Assembly: GCA_027061805.1 (NCBI GenBank)
Contig: JAMOWA010000015.1
Span: forward strand, 1-58,160
Direction: 5' to 3'
Source: Thermoanaerobaculia bacterium
GTDB taxonomy: Bacteria > Acidobacteriota > Thermoanaerobaculia > Thermoanaerobaculales > Sulfomarinibacteraceae
DNA length: 58,160 bases
Shown one piece after another: positions 9,981-19,817 of this stretch. Numbering within the stretch: position 1 is the stretch's first letter; every line of letters starts with the position of its first letter. The notes beneath the pieces were generated by a model. It did no database searches. It was not told where the DNA came from and worked only from the letters and a program-made list of their open reading frames with translations. A program made the position numbers and the translations under genes.

Positions 9981-11165
9981 TCAGCCCGCCACGGCTCCCC
10001 AGGCGAGGCCGGTGAGCGTGGCCATCACGATGACCAGCCCCACGTAGGCGCCGGTCCTCCTCGGTCCCAGGTAGGAGTTGATCACCAGCATGTTGGGCAG
10101 GGAGAGGGCCGGGCCCGCCAGGAGGAGCGTCAGGGCGGGCCCCTGGCCCATGCCCGCCCCCAGGAGGGTCTGGAGGATGGGCACCTCGGTGAGGGTCGCG
10201 AAGTACATGAAGGCTCCGGCCACGGCGGCGAACAGGTTGGCCGCCACCGAGTTCCCACCCACGGCGGTGGCGATCCAGGCCGCCGGGATCAGGCCGGCAT
10301 CACGCCCCGGACGGCCCATGAGCCAGCCGGCCACCAGCACGCCGCCGAAGAGCAGCGGCAGGATCTGGACCGCGAAGGCCCACGTGGCGCGGACCCAGCC
10401 CTCGAGCTCCTCCCTCCGGTACCAGCGGAGGATCATGTACGCCAGGGCCACGAGCAGGGCACCCGCGAGCTGCCAGTGGACCCTCCACACCAGGGCGAAC
10501 AGCCCCACCTCCCGGTTGGGCGCGCCCCAGTTGGCGAACACCAGGATGCCCACCATCACCGCGAGGAATGCCGCGTCCTGCCAGCCCCTGCGGGACCCTC
10601 CGGCCACGGGCCCCTGCACCGAGAACGGGTCCGGGCCGTTTTCCAGGCGCTCCCTCTCTTCGGTCCGGAAGAGCCACGCCATGATCAGGCCGATGACCAC
10701 GGAGAACACCACGGCGCCCACGGCGCGGGCGATCCCCAGGCCGACCCCCAGGACCCTCGCCGTGAGGATGATCGCCAGCACGTTGATGGCCGGCCCGGAG
10801 TAGAGGAAGGCGATGGCGGGTCCGAGACCCGCGCCGCGCCTGTGGATGCTGGCAAAGAGCGGCAGCACCGTGCACGAGCACACGGCCAGGACGGCTCCGG
10901 AGACCGACGCCACGCCGTAGGCCACCGTGCGCGGAGCCGAGCTGCCCAGGTACCTGAGGACCGCCCCCTGGCTGACGAACTCGGCGATGGCCCCAGCGAT
11001 GAAGAAGGCCGGCACGAGGCACAGCATCACGTGCTCGCGGGCGTACCACCTGAGCAGCCGGAACCCTTCCAGGAGGGCACCCTGCACCCTGGGATGCTCG
11101 ATGGGGAGAACGTAGATCGCAAGGAACACCCCGGCCATGAGCAGGAGCTTCGTCCGTTCCTTCAT
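9981..11165 (-). CDS. ArsP/YraQ-like permease (SO_0444 type)
   Basis: The 394-residue membrane protein has about ten helices. It carries the conserved VCSCTVLPLFASIHRRGAG segment with its paired cysteines and the following FLYSGPAINVLA motif. This pattern defines the permease family that includes ArsP, an exporter of trivalent organoarsenicals. Family members are often encoded with a mini-thioredoxin and ArsR, and the thioredoxin is present here. The ATG at 11165 is preceded by GGAGGGC; a GTG four codons upstream is less likely. It follows the thioredoxin gene and shares its divergent control region with an arsenate-reductase-like gene. The substrate cannot be settled from sequence. Confidence 0.85.
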   Translation of the reverse strand: MKERTKLLLMAGVFLAIYVLPIEHPRVQGALLEGFRLLRWYAREHVMLCLVPAFFIAGAIAEFVSQGAVLRYLGSSAPRTVAYGVASVSGAVLAVCSCTVLPLFASIHRRGAGLGPAIAFLYSGPAINVLAIILTARVLGVGLGIARAVGAVVFSVVIGLIMAWLFRTEERERLENGPDPFSVQGPVAGGSRRGWQDAAFLAVMVGILVFANWGAPNREVGLFALVWRVHWQLAGALLVALAYMILRWYRREELEGWVRATWAFAVQILPLLFGGVLVAGWLMGRPGRDAGLIPAAWIATAVGGNSVAANLFAAVAGAFMYFATLTEVPILQTLLGAGMGQGPALTLLLAGPALSLPNMLVINSYLGPRRTGAYVGLVIVMATLTGLAWGAVAG

Positions 11166-11225
11166 GCTGCCCTCCACCGGCTCCGCCGCGGCGTGCAGGG
11201 CGTCATTCCCACCCCGGCACCCCCG

Positions 11226-11477
11226 TCAGCCCGCGATCCCGAGCAGCTCCCGGACGAGCCCGGCCTCCGGCACCCGGCCCGCCACCCTGACCCGGCCGTC
11301 CACCACCACGGCGGGCGTTGCCAGGATCCCCATCTCGACCATGCGGTCGATGCTGTCCACCTTGCGGACCTCCACCTCGAGCCCCGCATCCTCCACCACC
11401 TGCCGGACCACGCGGTACGCCTGCTCGCACCGCGGGCACCCCGGCCCCAGGACCTCGATCCTCTTCACGGACGACAT
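11226..11477 (-). CDS. Mini-thioredoxin (TM0996/MTH895 family)
   Basis: This 83-residue protein begins VKRIEVLGPGCPRCEQAYRVV with a CPRC redox motif and continues through GILATPAVVVDGRV, containing the cis-proline of the thioredoxin fold. It likely supplies thiol electrons to the neighbouring permease or arsenate reductase. The ATG at 11477 has GGGGAGG seven bases upstream. It is first in a two-gene unit with the permease. Confidence 0.9.
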   Translation of the reverse strand: MSSVKRIEVLGPGCPRCEQAYRVVRQVVEDAGLEVEVRKVDSIDRMVEMGILATPAVVVDGRVRVAGRVPEAGLVRELLGIAG

Positions 11478-11517
11478 CGGACGCCTCCCCTCACTGGCCC
11501 GGCCAGAATAGTTCGTC

Positions 11518-11531
11518 ACATTTCGAAATGT
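11518..11531. promoter_or_regulatory. Palindromic operator candidate ACATTTCGAAATGT
   Basis: A perfect 14-base palindrome lies midway between the divergent mini-thioredoxin and arsenate-reductase-like genes, in a short AT-rich island. TAGTAT directly to its right and TATTCT on the opposite strand are possible -10 boxes. Position and symmetry suit a dimeric repressor such as ArsR, but no such gene is in the window. Confidence 0.45.
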
Positions 11532-11593
11532 AGTATCACTGGAATGTGCCGTCAAGCGTCCCACGGTGCTATCGTCAGGCCAGGGAGGAAGCA

Positions 11594-12028
11594 TTGCACC
11601 AGAACGGCGGCAGGAAGCGGGTCCTGATCCTCTGCACGGGCAACTCGTGCCGCTCCCAGATGGCGGAGGGGTTCGTCAACCACGTGCTGGGCGGAACCTG
11701 GCAGGCCCGCTCGGCGGGCACCGACCCCGCAGACGAGGTCCACCCCCTGGCGGTCCGCGTCATGGCGGAGGTGGGTGTCGACATCTCGCGGGGCATCCCG
11801 GAGCCCGTGGAGCGGTACCTGGACGATCCGTGGGACCTGGTGGTCACCGTGTGCGATGCGGCCAGGGAGACCTGCCCCCACTTCCCCCGTCCCGTGGAGG
11901 TCCTCCACATGGGCTTCCCCGATCCCGCCGGCGCCACCGGCACCCCGGAGGAACGCCTCGCCGTCTTCCGGGCTGTCCGTGACGCCATCCTCGAGAAGCT
12001 CGTCCCGGAGCTCCGGAAGCGAAGCTGA
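11594..12028 (+). CDS. Arsenate reductase-like low-molecular-weight phosphatase
   Basis: The protein starts RVLILCTGNSCRSQMAEGF, the C-x5-R-(S/T) loop of low-molecular-weight tyrosine phosphatases and thioredoxin-linked ArsC. RSAGTDPADEVHPLAV follows, then DLVVTVCDAARETCPHFP, containing the two further cysteines that ArsC of this class uses to relay oxidation to thioredoxin. A TTG at 11594 is favoured because AGGGAGGAA ends three bases before it; the ATG at 11546 would add 16 residues of poor character and remove the leader. With 144 residues it is normal for ArsC. Divergence from a thioredoxin and ArsP-like permease supports an arsenic role. Confidence 0.85.
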   Translation: MHQNGGRKRVLILCTGNSCRSQMAEGFVNHVLGGTWQARSAGTDPADEVHPLAVRVMAEVGVDISRGIPEPVERYLDDPWDLVVTVCDAARETCPHFPRPVEVLHMGFPDPAGATGTPEERLAVFRAVRDAILEKLVPELRKRS

Positions 12029-12076: not shown

Positions 12077-12271
12077 CCCCGGCCCTGCCCCAGTTCCGGG
12101 CCCTCTCCCCGTCTCCGGTTCCGCCCACCGGGATCGGGTGAGCCGTGAGGGTGGTCGGCGGCGGTGAACGGGCGACGGCGGCAGCAAACGAACACGCCCT
12201 CGCCCCCTCGCCCCTGCTCCCCTAGCCCCCTCCAGCCGTTCGGTGCTACCGTTGCACGGGAGGCGGACGCC

Positions 12272-14719
12272 ATGTTCAGGATCATCGCCGAGGGCATGGA
12301 CTACCGGGAGCACGTGCTCCTCAAGGACGGCCAGGGCGTGCTCCTCCGCCCGGCCACGGAGGCGGACATTCCCGCCGTCACGGAGTTCATGAGGGGGCTG
12401 TCCCAGGAGAGCCTCCGCATGCGCTTCATGGCCTCGGTCTCCGAGGTCCCGGAGTCGGTGATCCGGGACATGTGCACCGGGGACTTCACCGACCGGGGGT
12501 GCCTGCTGGCCATCATCGGGGAGGGGGACGAGGCCAGGGTCATCGGGCTGGGGAACTACGTGGGCCTCGGCAACGGAAGGACGGCCGAGGTGGCCTTCCT
12601 GGTGGCCGACGAGTTCCAGGGCAAGGGGATCAGCACGCTCATCCTGGAGCGGCTGGCCGGGCTCGCCGCGGCGCAGGGCTACGTGGAGTTCGAGGCCGAG
12701 GTGCTCTGGGAGAACCAGGCCATGATCAACGTCTTCCGCAGCTCGGGCTTCGAGGTCCACCAGGGGGTGGACGGCGGCCTCGTCCACGTGGAGTTCCCCG
12801 TCCGCGGCGCGGCGGCGGTCCGGGAGCGCGGCGAGCTCAGGGAGCGGATCGCCGTGGCCAACTCCCTCGGCCCCCTGCTCCGCCCGCGCGTGGTGGCCGT
12901 TGCGGGAGCCTCCCGGGACGCCCGGGGAATCGGGAACATGATCTTCCGCCACATCCTCCACGCGGGCTTCCCGGGCACGGTGTACCCGGTGAACCCCCAG
13001 GCCGAGTCCGTGCACGGGGTCCGGGCCTACCCCTCCATCCAGGACCTTCCCGAGAGGGTGGACCTGGCCGTGGTGGCCGTCCCCGCCGAGGCCGTGCTCC
13101 AGGTGGCGGAGCACGCCGTCCAGGCGGGAATCAAGGGGCTGCTCGTGGTGAGCTCCGGCTTTGCCGAGGCCGGCCCCGAGGGCGTGGAGCGCGAGCGGAA
13201 ACTCCTGGAGCTGGTGCGGGCCCACGGCCTGCGGCTCATCGGTCCCAACTGCCTCGGCATCATGAACACAGACCCCGACGTCCACCTCAACGCCTCACTG
13301 GCCCCCGACATCGCGCCCCTGGGCCGGGTGGGTTTCTTCTCCCAGTCCGCGGCCCTGGGCCTGGTGATCCTGGAGCACGCGGCCTCCAAGGGCCTGGGCT
13401 TCTCCACCTTCGTCTCGGCGGGGAACCGTGCCGACGTTTCCGGCAACGACCTGCTGCAGTACTGGGAGGAGGACCCCAACACGGACATGGCCCTGCTCTA
13501 CCTGGAGACCTTCGGCAACCCCAGGAAGTTCACCCGGATCGCCCGGCGCTTCGGCCAGCGCAAGCCCATCCTCTGCGTCAAGGGTGCCAGCAGCGCCACG
13601 GCCCAGAGCGCCTTCCGGACCGTGGACGGCAAGACCTTCGGGGGCGCCGCCGAGGTGGAGGCGCTCTTCCGCCAGGCGGGAATCATCCGGGCCGAGACCC
13701 TGGACGAGATGTTCGACGTGGCCATGGTGCTCACCCACCAGCCCCTGCCCCGAGGCCGGCGGGTCGCCATCGTGGCCAACTCCCACGGTGTCGCGACGCT
13801 CTTCGCCGACTCGTGCGAGGCCAACGGCCTCGTGGTCTCCGGGCCGGGCATGGTGGACCTGGGGGCCCTCACCGCCCCGGAGGACTACGAGGCCGCCGTC
13901 CGCCAGGCCCTGGAGCACGAGGAGGTGGACGCCCTCCTGGTGAGCTTCGCCTGCGTGGGCGATTGCACCGGTGAGCCGGTGGTGGAGGCCATCCAGCGCG
14001 GCGTCGGAGCCGCCCGGGACAACGGTGGTGGCGGCAAGCCCGTGCTCCTGTGCCTCATGGGCGCTGCCGGCGCCGTCTCCACGCCCGGGGCGAACCGGCC
14101 CGGCGGGGAGGGGGGTCTCGTGTTCCCCTCGTTCCTCTTCCCCGAGTCGGCCCCCCGGGCTCTGGCCCGGGTGGTGGAGTACGCCGAGTTCCGGCAGCGG
14201 AAGACCGGAACCGTCCCGTGGTTCGAGGACGTGGACGCCGCGCGGGCCCGGGAGCTGGTCAGGGCGGCCCTGGCGGAGGGCGAGCCGGATGGCTCCGGTG
14301 TGATCTGGCTCGAGGGCGAGCGCGCCAGGGAGATCCTGGACTGTTTCGCCATCCCCTCCACGCCGGAGGACTCCACGGCCGGGGACCGCACGGTGCTGGA
14401 CCTCGGGATCCGGCCGAGCCGCCACTTCGGCCCCCTGGTGGAGCTCGAGTGCGAGGGACACCCCACCGTGCTCCGGATCACCCCGCTCACGGACCGGGAC
14501 ATCGCGGAGACGGTGGAGAACCTGGGGTGCCCTCCCGGCTGCGGCGTGGAGGACATCCTGGGCCGCGTCTCGCAGATGATCGAGGAGCTCCCGTGGCTGG
14601 CGGCCATGCACGCCCGGGTGGAGTTCGGCGCCGGGGACGCACCCCGGCCCCGGCTCGTCCGGCCGCGGCTCGGCATCCGGCCCGTGGTGGGCTCCCGGCC
14701 CGGACCCGGCCCGAACTGA
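12272..14719 (+). CDS. Pat-like protein lysine acetyltransferase: GNAT fused to degenerate NDP-forming acyl-CoA synthetase
   Basis: The 815-residue protein probably acetylates lysines on enzymes such as acetyl-CoA synthetase. Residues 20 to 180 form a GNAT domain with the acetyl-CoA loop FQGKGIS near 113-120. From about 205 there is the CoA-binding domain (VVAVAGASRDARGIGN), then two succinyl-CoA-ligase-like domains. The family phospho-histidine loop (usually SHTGALAG) reads AFRTVDGKTFGG, so the His is missing. The usual NAGG loop reads NSHG. After ILDCFAIPSTPE (about 690) the sequence jumps to FGPLVELECEG (about 720), so most of the ATP-grasp N-lobe is absent. An inactive synthetase half is known for Pat. 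The ATG at 12272 follows GGGAGG. First gene of an acu-type operon. Confidence 0.88.
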   Translation: MFRIIAEGMDYREHVLLKDGQGVLLRPATEADIPAVTEFMRGLSQESLRMRFMASVSEVPESVIRDMCTGDFTDRGCLLAIIGEGDEARVIGLGNYVGLGNGRTAEVAFLVADEFQGKGISTLILERLAGLAAAQGYVEFEAEVLWENQAMINVFRSSGFEVHQGVDGGLVHVEFPVRGAAAVRERGELRERIAVANSLGPLLRPRVVAVAGASRDARGIGNMIFRHILHAGFPGTVYPVNPQAESVHGVRAYPSIQDLPERVDLAVVAVPAEAVLQVAEHAVQAGIKGLLVVSSGFAEAGPEGVERERKLLELVRAHGLRLIGPNCLGIMNTDPDVHLNASLAPDIAPLGRVGFFSQSAALGLVILEHAASKGLGFSTFVSAGNRADVSGNDLLQYWEEDPNTDMALLYLETFGNPRKFTRIARRFGQRKPILCVKGASSATAQSAFRTVDGKTFGGAAEVEALFRQAGIIRAETLDEMFDVAMVLTHQPLPRGRRVAIVANSHGVATLFADSCEANGLVVSGPGMVDLGALTAPEDYEAAVRQALEHEEVDALLVSFACVGDCTGEPVVEAIQRGVGAARDNGGGGKPVLLCLMGAAGAVSTPGANRPGGEGGLVFPSFLFPESAPRALARVVEYAEFRQRKTGTVPWFEDVDAARARELVRAALAEGEPDGSGVIWLEGERAREILDCFAIPSTPEDSTAGDRTVLDLGIRPSRHFGPLVELECEGHPTVLRITPLTDRDIAETVENLGCPPGCGVEDILGRVSQMIEELPWLAAMHARVEFGAGDAPRPRLVRPRLGIRPVVGSRPGPGPN

Positions 14720-14731
14720 TCGGAGGCTCCC

Positions 14732-15358
14732 ATGCTCGTTCGCGAAATCATGCATCCCGATCCCGTCACCATCGCGGCGGGCGCCTCGCTGCAGGAGGCC
14801 TATGCGCTCATGCAGGAACGGGGGATCCGCCACCTTCCCGTCATGGAGGGCGGGCGGCTCGCCGGCATCGTCACCGACCGCGACCTCCGCCTGGCCACCA
14901 GCGCGCTGAGCCCCAGCCCCTTCCCGCCGGACACGGGGCTCGCAGAGATCATGCGCCGGCCGGTCCACACGGCCGACCCGCTGGACCCCGTGGAGGTGGC
15001 GGCCCGCACCATGCGCGAGCTCAAGATCGGCTGCCTCCCCGTGCTGGAGGACACCCGGCTGGTGGGCATCGTGACGGGGATCGACCTGCTGGACGCCATG
15101 CTCAGGCTCACGGGCGTCCACCGTCCCTCGGGCCGCCTGGAGGTCTGTGTGCCGGACCGCCCCGGGGAGCTGGCCCGCCTCACCGGCCTGCTGAGCTCCC
15201 GGAACGTGAACATCCAGTCCATCCTCAGCTACCCCGACGCCGACGGCAACGTCCGGATCGTGCTCCGCATCGCCTCCATCGACACCCGCCCCCTGGCCGA
15301 GGCCCTGTGCGGTGCAGGCTTCGACGTGGTCTGGCCACCCCATCACGCATGCCGGTAG
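14732..15358 (+). CDS. acuB: AcuB-like CBS-ACT protein
   Basis: The 208-residue protein has two CBS motifs (residues 1-60, with REIMHPDPVTI and HLPVMEGGRLAGIVTDRDL; and 70-125, with IMRRPVHTADP and CLPVLEDTRLVGIVTGIDLL). A C-terminal ACT domain starts LEVCVPDRPGELARLTGLLSS. This is the architecture of AcuB from the Bacillus acetoin/acetate-utilisation operon acuABC. CBS domains bind adenine nucleotides and ACT domains bind small ligands, so it is a likely sensor. GGAGG precedes the ATG. It follows the Pat-like gene by 12 bases and overlaps acuC by 10 bases. Confidence 0.88.
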   Translation: MLVREIMHPDPVTIAAGASLQEAYALMQERGIRHLPVMEGGRLAGIVTDRDLRLATSALSPSPFPPDTGLAEIMRRPVHTADPLDPVEVAARTMRELKIGCLPVLEDTRLVGIVTGIDLLDAMLRLTGVHRPSGRLEVCVPDRPGELARLTGLLSSRNVNIQSILSYPDADGNVRIVLRIASIDTRPLAEALCGAGFDVVWPPHHACR

Positions 15359-16479
15359 TCGTCTACCACCCCGGCTACGCCTCCTACCGTTTCGGCGGGG
15401 AGCACCCCTTCAGCCCGGTGCGCATGGAGATGGTGCTCGACCTCCTCAGGGAGACCGGCAACCCCGTCCGGCCCGTGGAGCCCCCGGCCGCCACCGACGA
15501 GGAGCTCCTCACCGTCCACACGGCCCGGTACCTGGAGGCCGTGGCGGCCGCCAGCCGGGAGGGGGGCGCCCCCTCGCCGGTCTTCGGCCTGGACACCCCG
15601 GACAACCCCATCCTCCCGGGCCTGGACGAGGGCGCGCGGCTCGTGGTGGGCGGCACCCTCCACGGGGCCCGCCTCATCGCCGACGGCGAGGCCAGGCAGG
15701 TGCTCCAGCTGGGCGGCGGCCTGCACCACGCCATGCCCGAGCTGGCCTCCGGCTTCTGCATCTACAACGACCTGGCCATCGCCATCCGGGAGCTGGTCTC
15801 CCGGGGCCTCACCGTGGCCTACCTGGACATCGACGTCCACCACGGCGACGGTGTCCAGCAGATCCTCTACACCGACGAGAAGGTGATGACCATCAGCCTC
15901 CACGAGTCCGGCGAGTACCTCTTCCCGGGCACGGGCTGGCTGCACGAGCTGGGCATGTCCTCCGGACACGGCTTCAAGCTCAACGTTCCCCTGGAGCCCT
16001 TCACCGAGGGGGACAGCTACCTGGAGGTGGTGGAGCGGCTGGTGGAGCCCGCCCTGGCCTACTTCCGTCCCGACGTCCTGGTGGTCCAGGCGGGCGCCGA
16101 CGCCCACTGGTGCGACCCCCTGGCGGACCTCATGCTCACCACCCAGACCTACGAGAAGCTGTTCAGGGCCATCCTCGACTTCGCCGAGCTCTTCACCGGG
16201 GGCCGCCTGCTGGTCACCCTCGGCGGGGGCTACTCGCTCCGTGCGACCCCCAGGGTCTGGACCATCCTCCACCTCACGCTCTCCGGCCTGCCCCTCTTCG
16301 ACGAGCTGCCCGCTCCCTGGCTCGAACGCTGGTCGGCCCAGCTGGGCGACGACCCACCTGCCCGGCTCCACGACCCGCCATCCCCCTACGAGCCCATCCC
16401 CCGCTGGGAGGAGATCAACCGCCACAACCGCCTCATGGTCCAGCGCCTCCAGGACGCCGTGTCCATGCTGTGGCTGTAG
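15349..16479 (+). CDS. acuC: AcuC-type protein deacetylase (histone deacetylase family)
   Basis: The 376-residue zinc hydrolase removes acetyl groups from lysines. Visible active-site motifs are GGGLHHAMPE (His dyad), DIDVHHGDGVQQ (zinc Asp and His), QAGADAHWCDPLADL (second zinc Asp) and LVTLGGGYS (transition-state Tyr). Length and motifs match AcuC, which in Bacillus reactivates acetylated acetyl-CoA synthetase. The ATG at 15349 lies inside the end of acuB, in a different frame, so the two are translationally coupled. Together with the Pat-like acetyltransferase upstream this makes an acetylation-deacetylation switch. Confidence 0.92.
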   Translation: MPVVVYHPGYASYRFGGEHPFSPVRMEMVLDLLRETGNPVRPVEPPAATDEELLTVHTARYLEAVAAASREGGAPSPVFGLDTPDNPILPGLDEGARLVVGGTLHGARLIADGEARQVLQLGGGLHHAMPELASGFCIYNDLAIAIRELVSRGLTVAYLDIDVHHGDGVQQILYTDEKVMTISLHESGEYLFPGTGWLHELGMSSGHGFKLNVPLEPFTEGDSYLEVVERLVEPALAYFRPDVLVVQAGADAHWCDPLADLMLTTQTYEKLFRAILDFAELFTGGRLLVTLGGGYSLRATPRVWTILHLTLSGLPLFDELPAPWLERWSAQLGDDPPARLHDPPSPYEPIPRWEEINRHNRLMVQRLQDAVSMLWL

Positions 16480-16768: not shown

Positions 16769-17563
16769 TTACTCAATGGCATCCCCGGCACCAGTTTCAC
16801 TGGCACCAGTTTCACCCCACAGGCACACGCGCCGTACGCCCGTGATCTGGCCGGTCACGGCGCCCTCCCCCACCGTGCGGACCACGGCCGCGGGGTCCTC
16901 CACCACGGTGCCACAGAGGACGTCAAAGCCCAGCTCCAGGAGGGGTGCCGCCATGGGCGTGCTGGGCCCCAGCATCATGAGGAAGGCATCCTGCGGGACC
17001 CGCTCCAGGATCTCCGGCAGCGTCCCGTTGAGCAGCGTTGTGGCGGTGAGGGCCACCACGTCGGCGGAGCCCAGGTCCCGGAGAAGCTCGTCTCCCCCCC
17101 CTCCCCCGCCCCGGCTCCCGCGGTCGTGGACCACGAGCTCTCCCACGGCCCCGTCCAGCCTGGGGGTGAAGGGGAAGCGCCCCACCATGACCACGCGCCG
17201 GCCCCGGCCCCTTCGCGCGATGATCTCGACGGCGTTCTCTTCCGTGATCCTCCCGGCGGCCTCGCCGAGGAGGGCGTTGGCAGTGGCGAGGCCCACCGAG
17301 GCCTCCAGGAGCGAGGGGGAGCGAAGCAGGCCCAGGAGCTCGGAAGGGCTGCGGCCGGCGAGCGAGCCCGCCCACGCCACGGGCGTCTCGCCCGTCAGGT
17401 GGGCCTCCCCCCGCAGGGTGGAGGCGAGCCCCGCACCCGCGGTGGTTCTCACCGCGGTCCAGAAGGCCCCCACGCGGACCGCCAACACCTCGGCCTCTCT
17501 CGAGGACGGGCACCACAGGGCCGCCCCGAGCACGGCCTCCAGGGGATCCCGGACTCCGGTCAC
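16769..17563 (-). CDS. DUF364 / putative metal-chelation protein
   Basis: The 264-residue cytoplasmic protein resembles the DUF4213-DUF364 family, named as putative heavy-metal chelation proteins. Recognisable segments are ALWCPSSREAEVLAVRVGAFWTAVRTTAGAGLAS at the N-terminus, ASVGLATANALL, VVMVGRFPFTPRL, VALTATTLLNGTLPEIL and the LGPSTPMAPLL-type loop (LGPSTPMAAPLLELGFDVLCGTVVEDP). Family members often lie near molybdenum or metal-transport genes; here there is no such neighbour apart from a relic of a molybdoenzyme FAD subunit just upstream. GTG start at 17563. The C-terminus carries an imperfect ETGAS/ETGAG repeat caused by a 15-base direct repeat. Confidence 0.8.
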   Translation of the reverse strand: MTGVRDPLEAVLGAALWCPSSREAEVLAVRVGAFWTAVRTTAGAGLASTLRGEAHLTGETPVAWAGSLAGRSPSELLGLLRSPSLLEASVGLATANALLGEAAGRITEENAVEIIARRGRGRRVVMVGRFPFTPRLDGAVGELVVHDRGSRGGGGGGDELLRDLGSADVVALTATTLLNGTLPEILERVPQDAFLMMLGPSTPMAAPLLELGFDVLCGTVVEDPAAVVRTVGEGAVTGQITGVRRVCLWGETGASETGAGDAIE

Positions 17564-18329: not shown

Positions 18330-18416
18330 TCAGTCGCCGGCGAGGTCGAAGCCGGTGCCGTCCAGGAAGGCCTCCAGGGCGGGAAGGCCGATCAGCGGTT
18401 GGCCGGCCACCGGCAT
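18330..18416 (-). CDS. 28-codon ORF coupled to cstA
   Basis: The cstA stop overlaps a new ATG as TGATG. The following 28 codons read MPVAGQPLIGLPALEAFLDG and end FDLAGD. In many genomes CstA is followed by a short DUF466 (YbdD) protein; PLIGLPALEAFL is faintly like that family's VGxPDYExYL core, but this product is less than half as long. It may be a relic of that partner or a chance frame. Confidence 0.25.
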   Translation of the reverse strand: MPVAGQPLIGLPALEAFLDGTGFDLAGD

Positions 18417-19627
18417 CAGGTGGCCACCGTCTCCGGCGTGTCCGTCCCGGTGGGCGTGATGCGGAGGAACCTGATGAGCCCCTCCACGGCGATCCAGAGA
18501 GCCACCACCAGGATGACGAAGTTGAGGACCTCGAGGATGAGGTTCTCCTGCGACACGAACTTGAACTGGTTCAGCACCAGGGCCCAGACCGTCATGACGA
18601 TCATGAAGACGGCGGGAATGCCCGTGACGAGCCACTTGAGCCCACCCCTCGACCTCAGGTACACCGAGCCCACGATGAGGGCCAGGGCCGCCAGGGTCTG
18701 GTTCGTGGCGCCGAAGAGCGGCCAGAGCTTCAGGGCTCCCCTGCCGCTGGCACCCGACATGAACGCCAGCACCGCAGCCGTCCCCACGGCGATGAAGGTG
18801 GCCGTGAACCGGCCGGTGAGGAAGTCCATCTTCAGGTCGCCAAAGAGCTCGGCGATCACGTAGCGCTGGATCCGGGTGGCGGTGTCCATGGTGGTCCCGG
18901 CGAAGGAGGCCACGAAGACGCCCATGATCACCAGGGCGATCCCGTGGGGGATGCCCAGGGACTGGATCATGTTGGCCGATCCGGTCACGAAGGCGCCCAC
19001 CTTGGAGGCGAGCCCGGCCGCCGAGGCCCAGGAGGCGTAGTGCGCCGTCCAGGCCGGGAGACCCGTCAGGAGCTCACCGCCCTTGGTGGCGTAGCCCATC
19101 CCGATGCCGGCGCAGGTGGCGATCACCACCAGCGTGGACAGCACGCCCTCCATCAGCATGGACCCGTAGCCCACGAAGAGGGCGTCCTCCTCGTTGCGGA
19201 CCTGCTTCGACGTGGTCCCGGAGGACACGAGGGAGTGGAAGCCCGAGATGGCGCCGCAGGCGATGGTGATGAAGAGGAAGGGCCACAGGGGCGGCGCCTG
19301 CTCCGGAGTGGCGTTGAAGGCCGGGGCCACCACGTGGAGCTCCCCGCCGAAGGCCGACGCCACCACACCGAGGACCAGGAGCGCCAGGGCGATGACCGCG
19401 ATGGCGGGGCCGACGATGGGTCCCGTGCCGGCGATGGAGGCGTAGTGGTGGCCGAAGATCACCTCCTTGGGCGTCGGCACGTAGTCGATGCCGTCCTCGA
19501 GCTCCACGGCGGGAACCGGGGCCGTCCTCGAGAGCATGAAGATCCGCCGGCCCACATACTTCCCGTAGAGCTGGTAGGCCCCGAGGAACCCTGCGAAGGT
19601 GACGATCATGATCAGCAGTGCGTCCAT
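18416..19627 (-). CDS. cstA: CstA-family peptide/pyruvate transporter with internal deletion
   Basis: CstA proteins import peptides or pyruvate. The start (LYGKYVGRRIF, DGIDYVPTPKEVIFGHHYASIAGTGPIVGP) and the second half (WPFLFITIACGAISGFHSLVSSGTT, VGYGSMLMEG, FVASFAGTTMDTATRIQRY, LWPLFGATNQ) match the family closely. However, the product has only 403 residues against about 560-700 in most members. The family segment that should follow GPAIAV, containing the conserved DF motif and the SVLPVWLLL-type helices, is missing; the join lies near residue 79 and keeps the reading frame. About 150-180 residues, several helices, are gone. Function is therefore doubtful. The ATG at 19627 follows a GGAGGGGG element. 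Confidence 0.8.
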   Translation of the reverse strand: MDALLIMIVTFAGFLGAYQLYGKYVGRRIFMLSRTAPVPAVELEDGIDYVPTPKEVIFGHHYASIAGTGPIVGPAIAVIALALLVLGVVASAFGGELHVVAPAFNATPEQAPPLWPFLFITIACGAISGFHSLVSSGTTSKQVRNEEDALFVGYGSMLMEGVLSTLVVIATCAGIGMGYATKGGELLTGLPAWTAHYASWASAAGLASKVGAFVTGSANMIQSLGIPHGIALVIMGVFVASFAGTTMDTATRIQRYVIAELFGDLKMDFLTGRFTATFIAVGTAAVLAFMSGASGRGALKLWPLFGATNQTLAALALIVGSVYLRSRGGLKWLVTGIPAVFMIVMTVWALVLNQFKFVSQENLILEVLNFVILVVALWIAVEGLIRFLRITPTGTDTPETVAT

Positions 19628-19649
19628 ACCCCCTCCTCTCGATCCGTGA

Positions 19650-19817
19650 CCGTTCAGAGGCCGGGCGGCGGCGGTGGTCCGCGCACTGGTGGAGCGCTTC
19701 GGGATCGCCCCCTCCCGCCTGGAGGCCCATGGCGTGGGGCCCCTCGCCCCCGTGGCCACGAACGCCACCGAGGAGGGGCGGAAGCTCAATCGCAGGGTGG
19801 AGCTCGTGGCCCGCTGA
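19650..19817 (+). pseudogene. C-terminal relic of an OmpA-family protein
   Basis: After an in-frame stop the sequence reads [20 protein letters not shown], then [20 protein letters not shown] and [12 protein letters not shown] before TGA. That is the characteristic end of the OmpA peptidoglycan-binding domain, including the N-x-T-x-EGR-x-x-NRRVE motif. There is no start codon, signal peptide or upstream part of the domain. It lies between divergent cstA and the dynamin gene. Confidence 0.7.

Follow-up and report, generated by a model that had tools for sequence, protein, structure and literature searches.

Which signals can a Pat-type protein acetyltransferase still sense once part of its acyl-CoA synthetase half has been lost? 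The question is raised by three coupled genes, pat, acuB and acuC, in a 58,160-nucleotide (nt) stretch of DNA (the window) from a Thermoanaerobaculia bacterium (assembly GCA_027061805.1, contig JAMOWA010000015.1). The window is part of a draft genome of 68 contigs. We propose, with a probability of roughly 80%, that this operon is an Acu-type switch for acetyl-CoA synthetase (Acs), in which the acetylating enzyme, or writer, would be a reduced Pat that senses CoA or acetyl-CoA and not ATP, and AcuB would sense adenine nucleotides. The assignment of writer, sensor, eraser and target is supported by homology and gene linkage.

A Pat protein without the ATP-grasp N-lobe

A preliminary description, made from the sequence of the window, had read the three genes as writer, sensor and eraser of lysine acetylation, and the writer as a GNAT domain fused to a nucleoside diphosphate (NDP)-forming synthetase half, not as a single-domain AcuA. 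Domain, structure and linkage evidence backs the first reading. The second holds as well, as the writer (P0001) is a multidomain protein of 815 amino acids (aa) in which Pfam matched GNAT, CoA_binding_2 and Succ_CoA_lig. ATP-grasp_5 was not matched by Pfam in this protein, and at a permissive cut-off of 0.01 it was matched in only 24 of 45 aligned family members. The other two proteins were matched as CBS-CBS-ACT (AcuB) and histone-deacetylase domain (AcuC), and acuC starts within the 3' end of acuB, with an overlap of 10 nt. Positions are given in Table 1.

The window Pat has the N-terminal GNAT domain, the acetyl-CoA motif and the catalytic Glu of type II GNAT acetyltransferases, a class that includes S. 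lividans PatA (PMC8556138). Its SHTG loop is absent, in keeping with the inactive synthetase without catalytic His that is expected of this class, and the complete synthetase half including ATP-grasp is not there. Alignment with 15 full-length type II relatives revealed three deletions. Between residues 694 and 718, only 23 residues stand in place of 91-96, a loss of about 70 residues from the ATP-grasp N-lobe; domain 5 has 8 residues instead of 27, and the ATP-grasp C-lobe 28 instead of 40. The preliminary description had correctly placed a gap at about residues 690-720 and recognized the loss of the N-lobe, and had overlooked the two smaller deletions. Two features seen in the C-lobe of full-length proteins, the glycine loop (GLGG) and the LNP motif, are also lost from that of the window Pat. 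All three deletions are found in 29/29 members of a clade comprising the window Pat and 28 relatives of 48-74% identity, and none of them in the full-length proteins (0/15). A C-lobe motif, FGP...RITPLTDRD...LGRxSQ(M/L)IEELPW, is kept in the clade.

An AlphaFold2 (AF2) model of the window Pat, built with 45 family sequences, reached a predicted local distance difference test (pLDDT) score of 86 and a predicted template modelling (pTM) score of 0.86. Its GNAT domain is nearly superimposable on that of S. lividans PatA (4nxy and 4u5y; for 4u5y Z 26.1, root-mean-square deviation (rmsd) 1.4 over 165 residues, 34% identity); in entry 4u5y this GNAT was crystallized together with the C-terminal domain of Acs. 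The window Pat is shorter than S. lividans PatA (815 vs about 900 aa), lacks the N-lobe together with segments of domain 5 and the C-lobe, and is encoded beside acuB and acuC in one operon. Among ADP-forming acyl-CoA synthetases, its synthetase half matches ckcACD1 (4yaj, Z 43.1) and 4-hydroxybutyrate-CoA ligase (8wzu, Z 43.0, 576 residues, rmsd 2.7), in which the CoA-binding and flavodoxin regions and domain 5 are similarly folded. Because the phospho-His and the N-lobe are both absent, the window Pat cannot act as a synthetase of this kind. With the type I enzymes E. coli PatZ (9it0, Z 36.4) and S. enterica Pat, it shares a GNAT combined with inactive synthetase modules, whereas the order of the domains is opposite and PatZ retains the whole ATP-grasp domain (9isb). 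The C-terminal piece, modelled alone and with confidence (pLDDT 91), superimposes on 138/226 residues of this PatZ domain (entry confirmed as PatZ; Z 16.7, rmsd 2.3), and is thus an ATP-grasp fold minus its N-lobe.

Table 1. Genes of the acetylation operon and domain map of the encoded Pat protein (positions in the window)
Feature	Position	Strand	Description
pat	12272..14719	+	GNAT + reduced NDP-forming acyl-CoA synthetase, 815 aa; Shine-Dalgarno (SD)-like GGGAGG at 12258-12263
GNAT domain	12305..12799	+	Residues 12-176; AEVAF...QGKGIS motif; Glu106 at the usual position of the catalytic Glu
CoA-binding domain, intact	12887..13267	+	Residues 206-332; PF13380, 7.8e-25
Succinyl-CoA-ligase-like flavodoxin domain	13322..13732	+	Residues 351-487; PF13607, 1.7e-46
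Degenerate phospho-histidine loop	13592..13657	+	Residues 441-462; no SHTG; from alignments; pLDDT <50 at 449-455
ATP-grasp remnant (linker + C-lobe, no N-lobe)	14192..14677	+	Residues 641-802; from the AF2 model of the piece alone
Deletion junction	14354..14422	+	Residues 695-717; ~70 ATP-grasp N-lobe residues absent (family alignment)
acuB	14732..15358	+	CBS-CBS-ACT protein, 208 aa; SD-like GGAGG at 14722-14726
acuC	15349..16479	+	Zn-dependent (HDAC-type) deacetylase; PF00850, 2.4e-84; ATG start at 15349

Descent and conservation of the reduced Pat

In both trees the 29 truncated proteins group in a single clade, supported at 100/100, and the titles of their records place them in Acidobacteriota, Ignavibacteriota, Calditrichota, Bacteroidota and Chlorobiota. 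Because relatives in several phyla share the loss, usually beside the same partner genes, the loss of the lobe is an inherited variant and not damage. The source being a draft genome in 68 contigs, the gap might be an artefact of assembly or annotation, or a recent pseudogene, but the probability of this is practically nil: 28 further loci, taken from independent assemblies, show the same deletions, as do all the Thermaceae copies that were measured. The preliminary description had itself considered an assembly fault and suggested a survey of relatives; such a fault is excluded, since the same gaps are present in orthologues of 65-74% identity that come from other assemblies. It had also called the loss of the lobe unusual. 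The loss is real, yet it is not a peculiarity of one genome, as it defines a clade in several phyla and reduction has gone further in Thermaceae.

A search of 50 Thermaceae genomes found the same three deletions in 24/24 copies measured, and also in Meiothermus granaticius (L056); in these proteins the whole phospho-His loop has been excised as well. A single truncation that includes Thermaceae was compared with separate ones in an approximately unbiased (AU) test (p = 0.24), and the rooted tree gave a three-way split, so one loss and two independent losses are both compatible with the trees. The distribution within a class can be patchy: among 61 genomes of the class to which the Melioribacteraceae genome G104 belongs, only 3 contain the gene, which rules out its universal presence there. 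A second, diverged truncated paralogue (48% identity) was observed in genome G004 (L091, 1376-3691), where neither acuB nor acuC adjoins it.

The phospho-His loop has a different history. It is degenerate in the window Pat and in its own taxonomic family, and His is retained in 9/29 members of the clade (as AHIG, AHIA or EHTG), which rules out the loss of phospho-His as a clade-wide trait; 14/15 full-length relatives retain SHTG or SHTA. With the lobe lost in all 29 members, the lobe loss is therefore universal and the His loss partial. The expression 'doubly degenerate', used in the preliminary description, thus suits the window Pat and not the clade as a whole. We infer that the N-lobe was lost first and that the phospho-His loop decayed afterwards. 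Mean pairwise identity in the clade is 37% at the loop (63% in the full-length proteins) and 22% at the deletion junction (60%), which supports a relaxed constraint at both sites. The corresponding values are 60% vs 57% for the CoA-binding domain and 77% vs 78% for the flavodoxin domain. Judged from the conservation of the CoA-binding domain, a role of the synthetase half as a pure sensor of CoA or acetyl-CoA, as previously suggested, is plausible.

The synthetase halves of type II Pats are held to be inactive. Most of the full-length type II GNAT-synthetase fusions (L023-L033) retain both the SHTG/SHTA loop and the full ATP-grasp block, so that, contrary to this textbook view, activity may persist in their synthetase half.

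The sensor, the eraser and the proposed target

AcuB of the window matches the AcuB structures of Geobacillus and Bacillus (9s4w, 9s4v). Its residues R33, H34, R50 and C101 are the counterparts of Arg33, His34, Arg51 and Cys105, with which B. subtilis AcuB binds adenine nucleotides (PMC13121692), and they are kept in 44, 44, 44 and 42 of 44 related copies, respectively; the position of B. subtilis Lys120 is occupied by Gly in the alignment. AcuC has an HDAC fold with the Zn-binding and catalytic residues in place, as H129, H130, D163, D165, H167, D254 and Y298 are present and invariant wherever the related copies cover them. In Bacilli, AcuC is inhibited by AcuB (PMC13121692, PMC13039410). The ligand is disputed: the potent one was AMP in one study (PMC13121692) and diadenosine tetraphosphate (Ap4A) in another (PMC13039410). 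With the acuABC system of Bacillus (PMC13121692, PMC13039410, PMC11910552), the operon has in common a lysine acetyltransferase, a CBS-CBS-ACT AcuB, an HDAC-type AcuC, overlapping acuB and acuC genes and, by homology, an Acs with RSGK as target. It differs in that the writer is a reduced Pat instead of the single-domain AcuA, in that acsA is divergent in Bacilli and usually in tandem upstream in this clade, and in its occurrence outside Firmicutes.

The gene neighbourhood was counted for 35 truncated-Pat loci. The acuB-acuC pair directly adjoins pat (gap ≤0.5 kb) in 31/35 of these. In 15, the first gene of the cluster is acs, on the same strand and within 1.1 kb; in 2 others acs is divergent. 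Where acs comes first, the order is usually acs-pat-acuB-acuC, and acs-acuB-acuC-pat also occurs; tandem acs-pat is found in several phyla. The window itself has no acs, as had been stated before, because the acs of this genome is located elsewhere, on contig C26. The encoded Acs is 80-90% identical to most of the linked Acs proteins and 68-76% to the others. It keeps an intact PKTRSGK site, with PDMPKTRSGKIMRRVL retained, and the linked Acs have the same MPKTRSGKIMRRVL site. An AcuB orthologue was found in 17/17 genomes with truncated Pat, in 7/16 with full-length Pat only and in 1/67 with neither; the difference between the first two groups (Fisher p = 3e-4) comes from a test that ignores phylogeny and from genomes that are mostly metagenome-assembled. 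An acs-acuB-acuC cluster lacking pat also occurs in some of the genomes that have a full-length Pat (L087-L089), so AcuBC can probably work with either kind of writer. Two HDAC + CBS-ACT gene pairs were seen in tandem in genome G039 (L095, 63-3258), with a similar arrangement in G042.

Proposed mechanism and alternatives

Architecture, deletions, conservation, operon linkage and the intact Acs site are read from sequence; catalysis, ligands and direction of control in the following scheme are what we infer from them. When acetyl-CoA is high, the reduced type II Pat would acetylate the catalytic Lys of Acs in the PKTRSGK site and so switch off this AMP-forming enzyme, and AcuC would remove the acetyl group. 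AcuB would bind adenine nucleotides, such as AMP or Ap4A in Bacilli, and block AcuC accordingly. The writer would keep its CoA-binding and flavodoxin domains as a regulatory module responsive to CoA or acetyl-CoA. Since the N-lobe and the conserved C-lobe loops are missing, the writer should be unable to use ATP through its ATP-grasp domain: ATP would not be bound there, no His would be phosphorylated, and nucleotide sensing would have been lost; the remaining C-lobe would be structural. Without the N-lobe, energy sensing would be left to AcuB, on the side of the eraser. A further step is tentative: the ATP-grasp domain of Pat enzymes may be a nucleotide-sensing module, and this clade may have shifted that sense from the writer to AcuB. 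The association with acuBC supports such a move, and the coexistence of full-length Pats with AcuBC weakens it.

That the window Pat acetylates Acs is suggested by linkage and by the GNAT fold, and it could, with a possibility that is real but the lesser one, be a broad protein acetyltransferase for which Acs is one of many targets, the operon then setting the global acetylome. B. subtilis AcuC deacetylates several proteins (PMC13039410), which speaks for this, but the linkage recurs to acs specifically, including the tandem acs-pat of several phyla. The losses of the N-lobe, the phospho-His loop and parts of domain 5 would also be expected if the synthetase half were a decaying relic and the GNAT worked alone. 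We consider this quite improbable, as conservation of the CoA-binding and flavodoxin domains matches that in full-length Pats, the clade motif is retained in the C-lobe, and the GNAT of PatZ is inactive when isolated (reviewed in PMC8556138). It is likewise unlikely that the window Pat senses the energy charge itself through a nucleotide site that lies between domains or in the C-lobe; the C-lobe is conserved and the ATP-grasp domain of PatZ was crystallized with a ligand (9isb), but the N-lobe is missing here and the C-lobe has neither the glycine loop nor the LNP motif.

Several observations weigh against an Acu-type switch for Acs with a writer that senses (acetyl-)CoA. No acuB was detected beside pat in three truncated loci, L044, L052 (where the downstream sequence extends for only about 1.1 kb) and the paralogue L091, and in L084 it lies 9 kb from the truncated pat. 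Neither acuB nor acuC turned up in the 1.5 kb flanks of pat checked in Thermaceae. The acs of the window genome lies apart from the operon, and this genome also encodes other GNATs and a SIR2 homologue. The further substrates of AcuC in Bacillus and the limits of the AcuB comparison count on the same side.

In the open-access full texts searched, no paper was found on a Pat without ATP-grasp or on an acs-pat-acuB-acuC operon; the protein is a real and conserved Pat variant for which the searchable literature yielded no published description. It joins a Pat-type writer with the AcuBC sensor and eraser, which textbooks usually treat as separate systems, and this pairing occurs far from Bacilli. 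The natural deletion of the lobe makes the role of the inactive synthetase half testable, both in what is sensed and by which part, and a comparison of reduced and full-length Pats would separate the sensing of CoA from a possible sensing of ATP. If sensing was indeed handed to AcuB, acs-pat-acuB-acuC would record a regulatory input moving between the opposing enzymes of a futile cycle.

Flanking genes

Immediately upstream of pat, the region 9981-12028 looks like an arsenic cluster. It contains an ArsP_1 permease gene (9981-11177, -), a gene for a low-molecular-weight phosphatase family protein resembling arsenate reductase (11546-12028, +) and, between these two, a gene for a thioredoxin-like protein (11226-11594, -). 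On the other side, a CstA-type carbon starvation protein is encoded at 18416-19789 (-), with a best Pfam stretch that covers the second half of the model only (258-560). Closer to the operon and convergent with it lies a gene for a DUF364/DUF4213 putative heavy-metal chelation protein (16769-17563, -).
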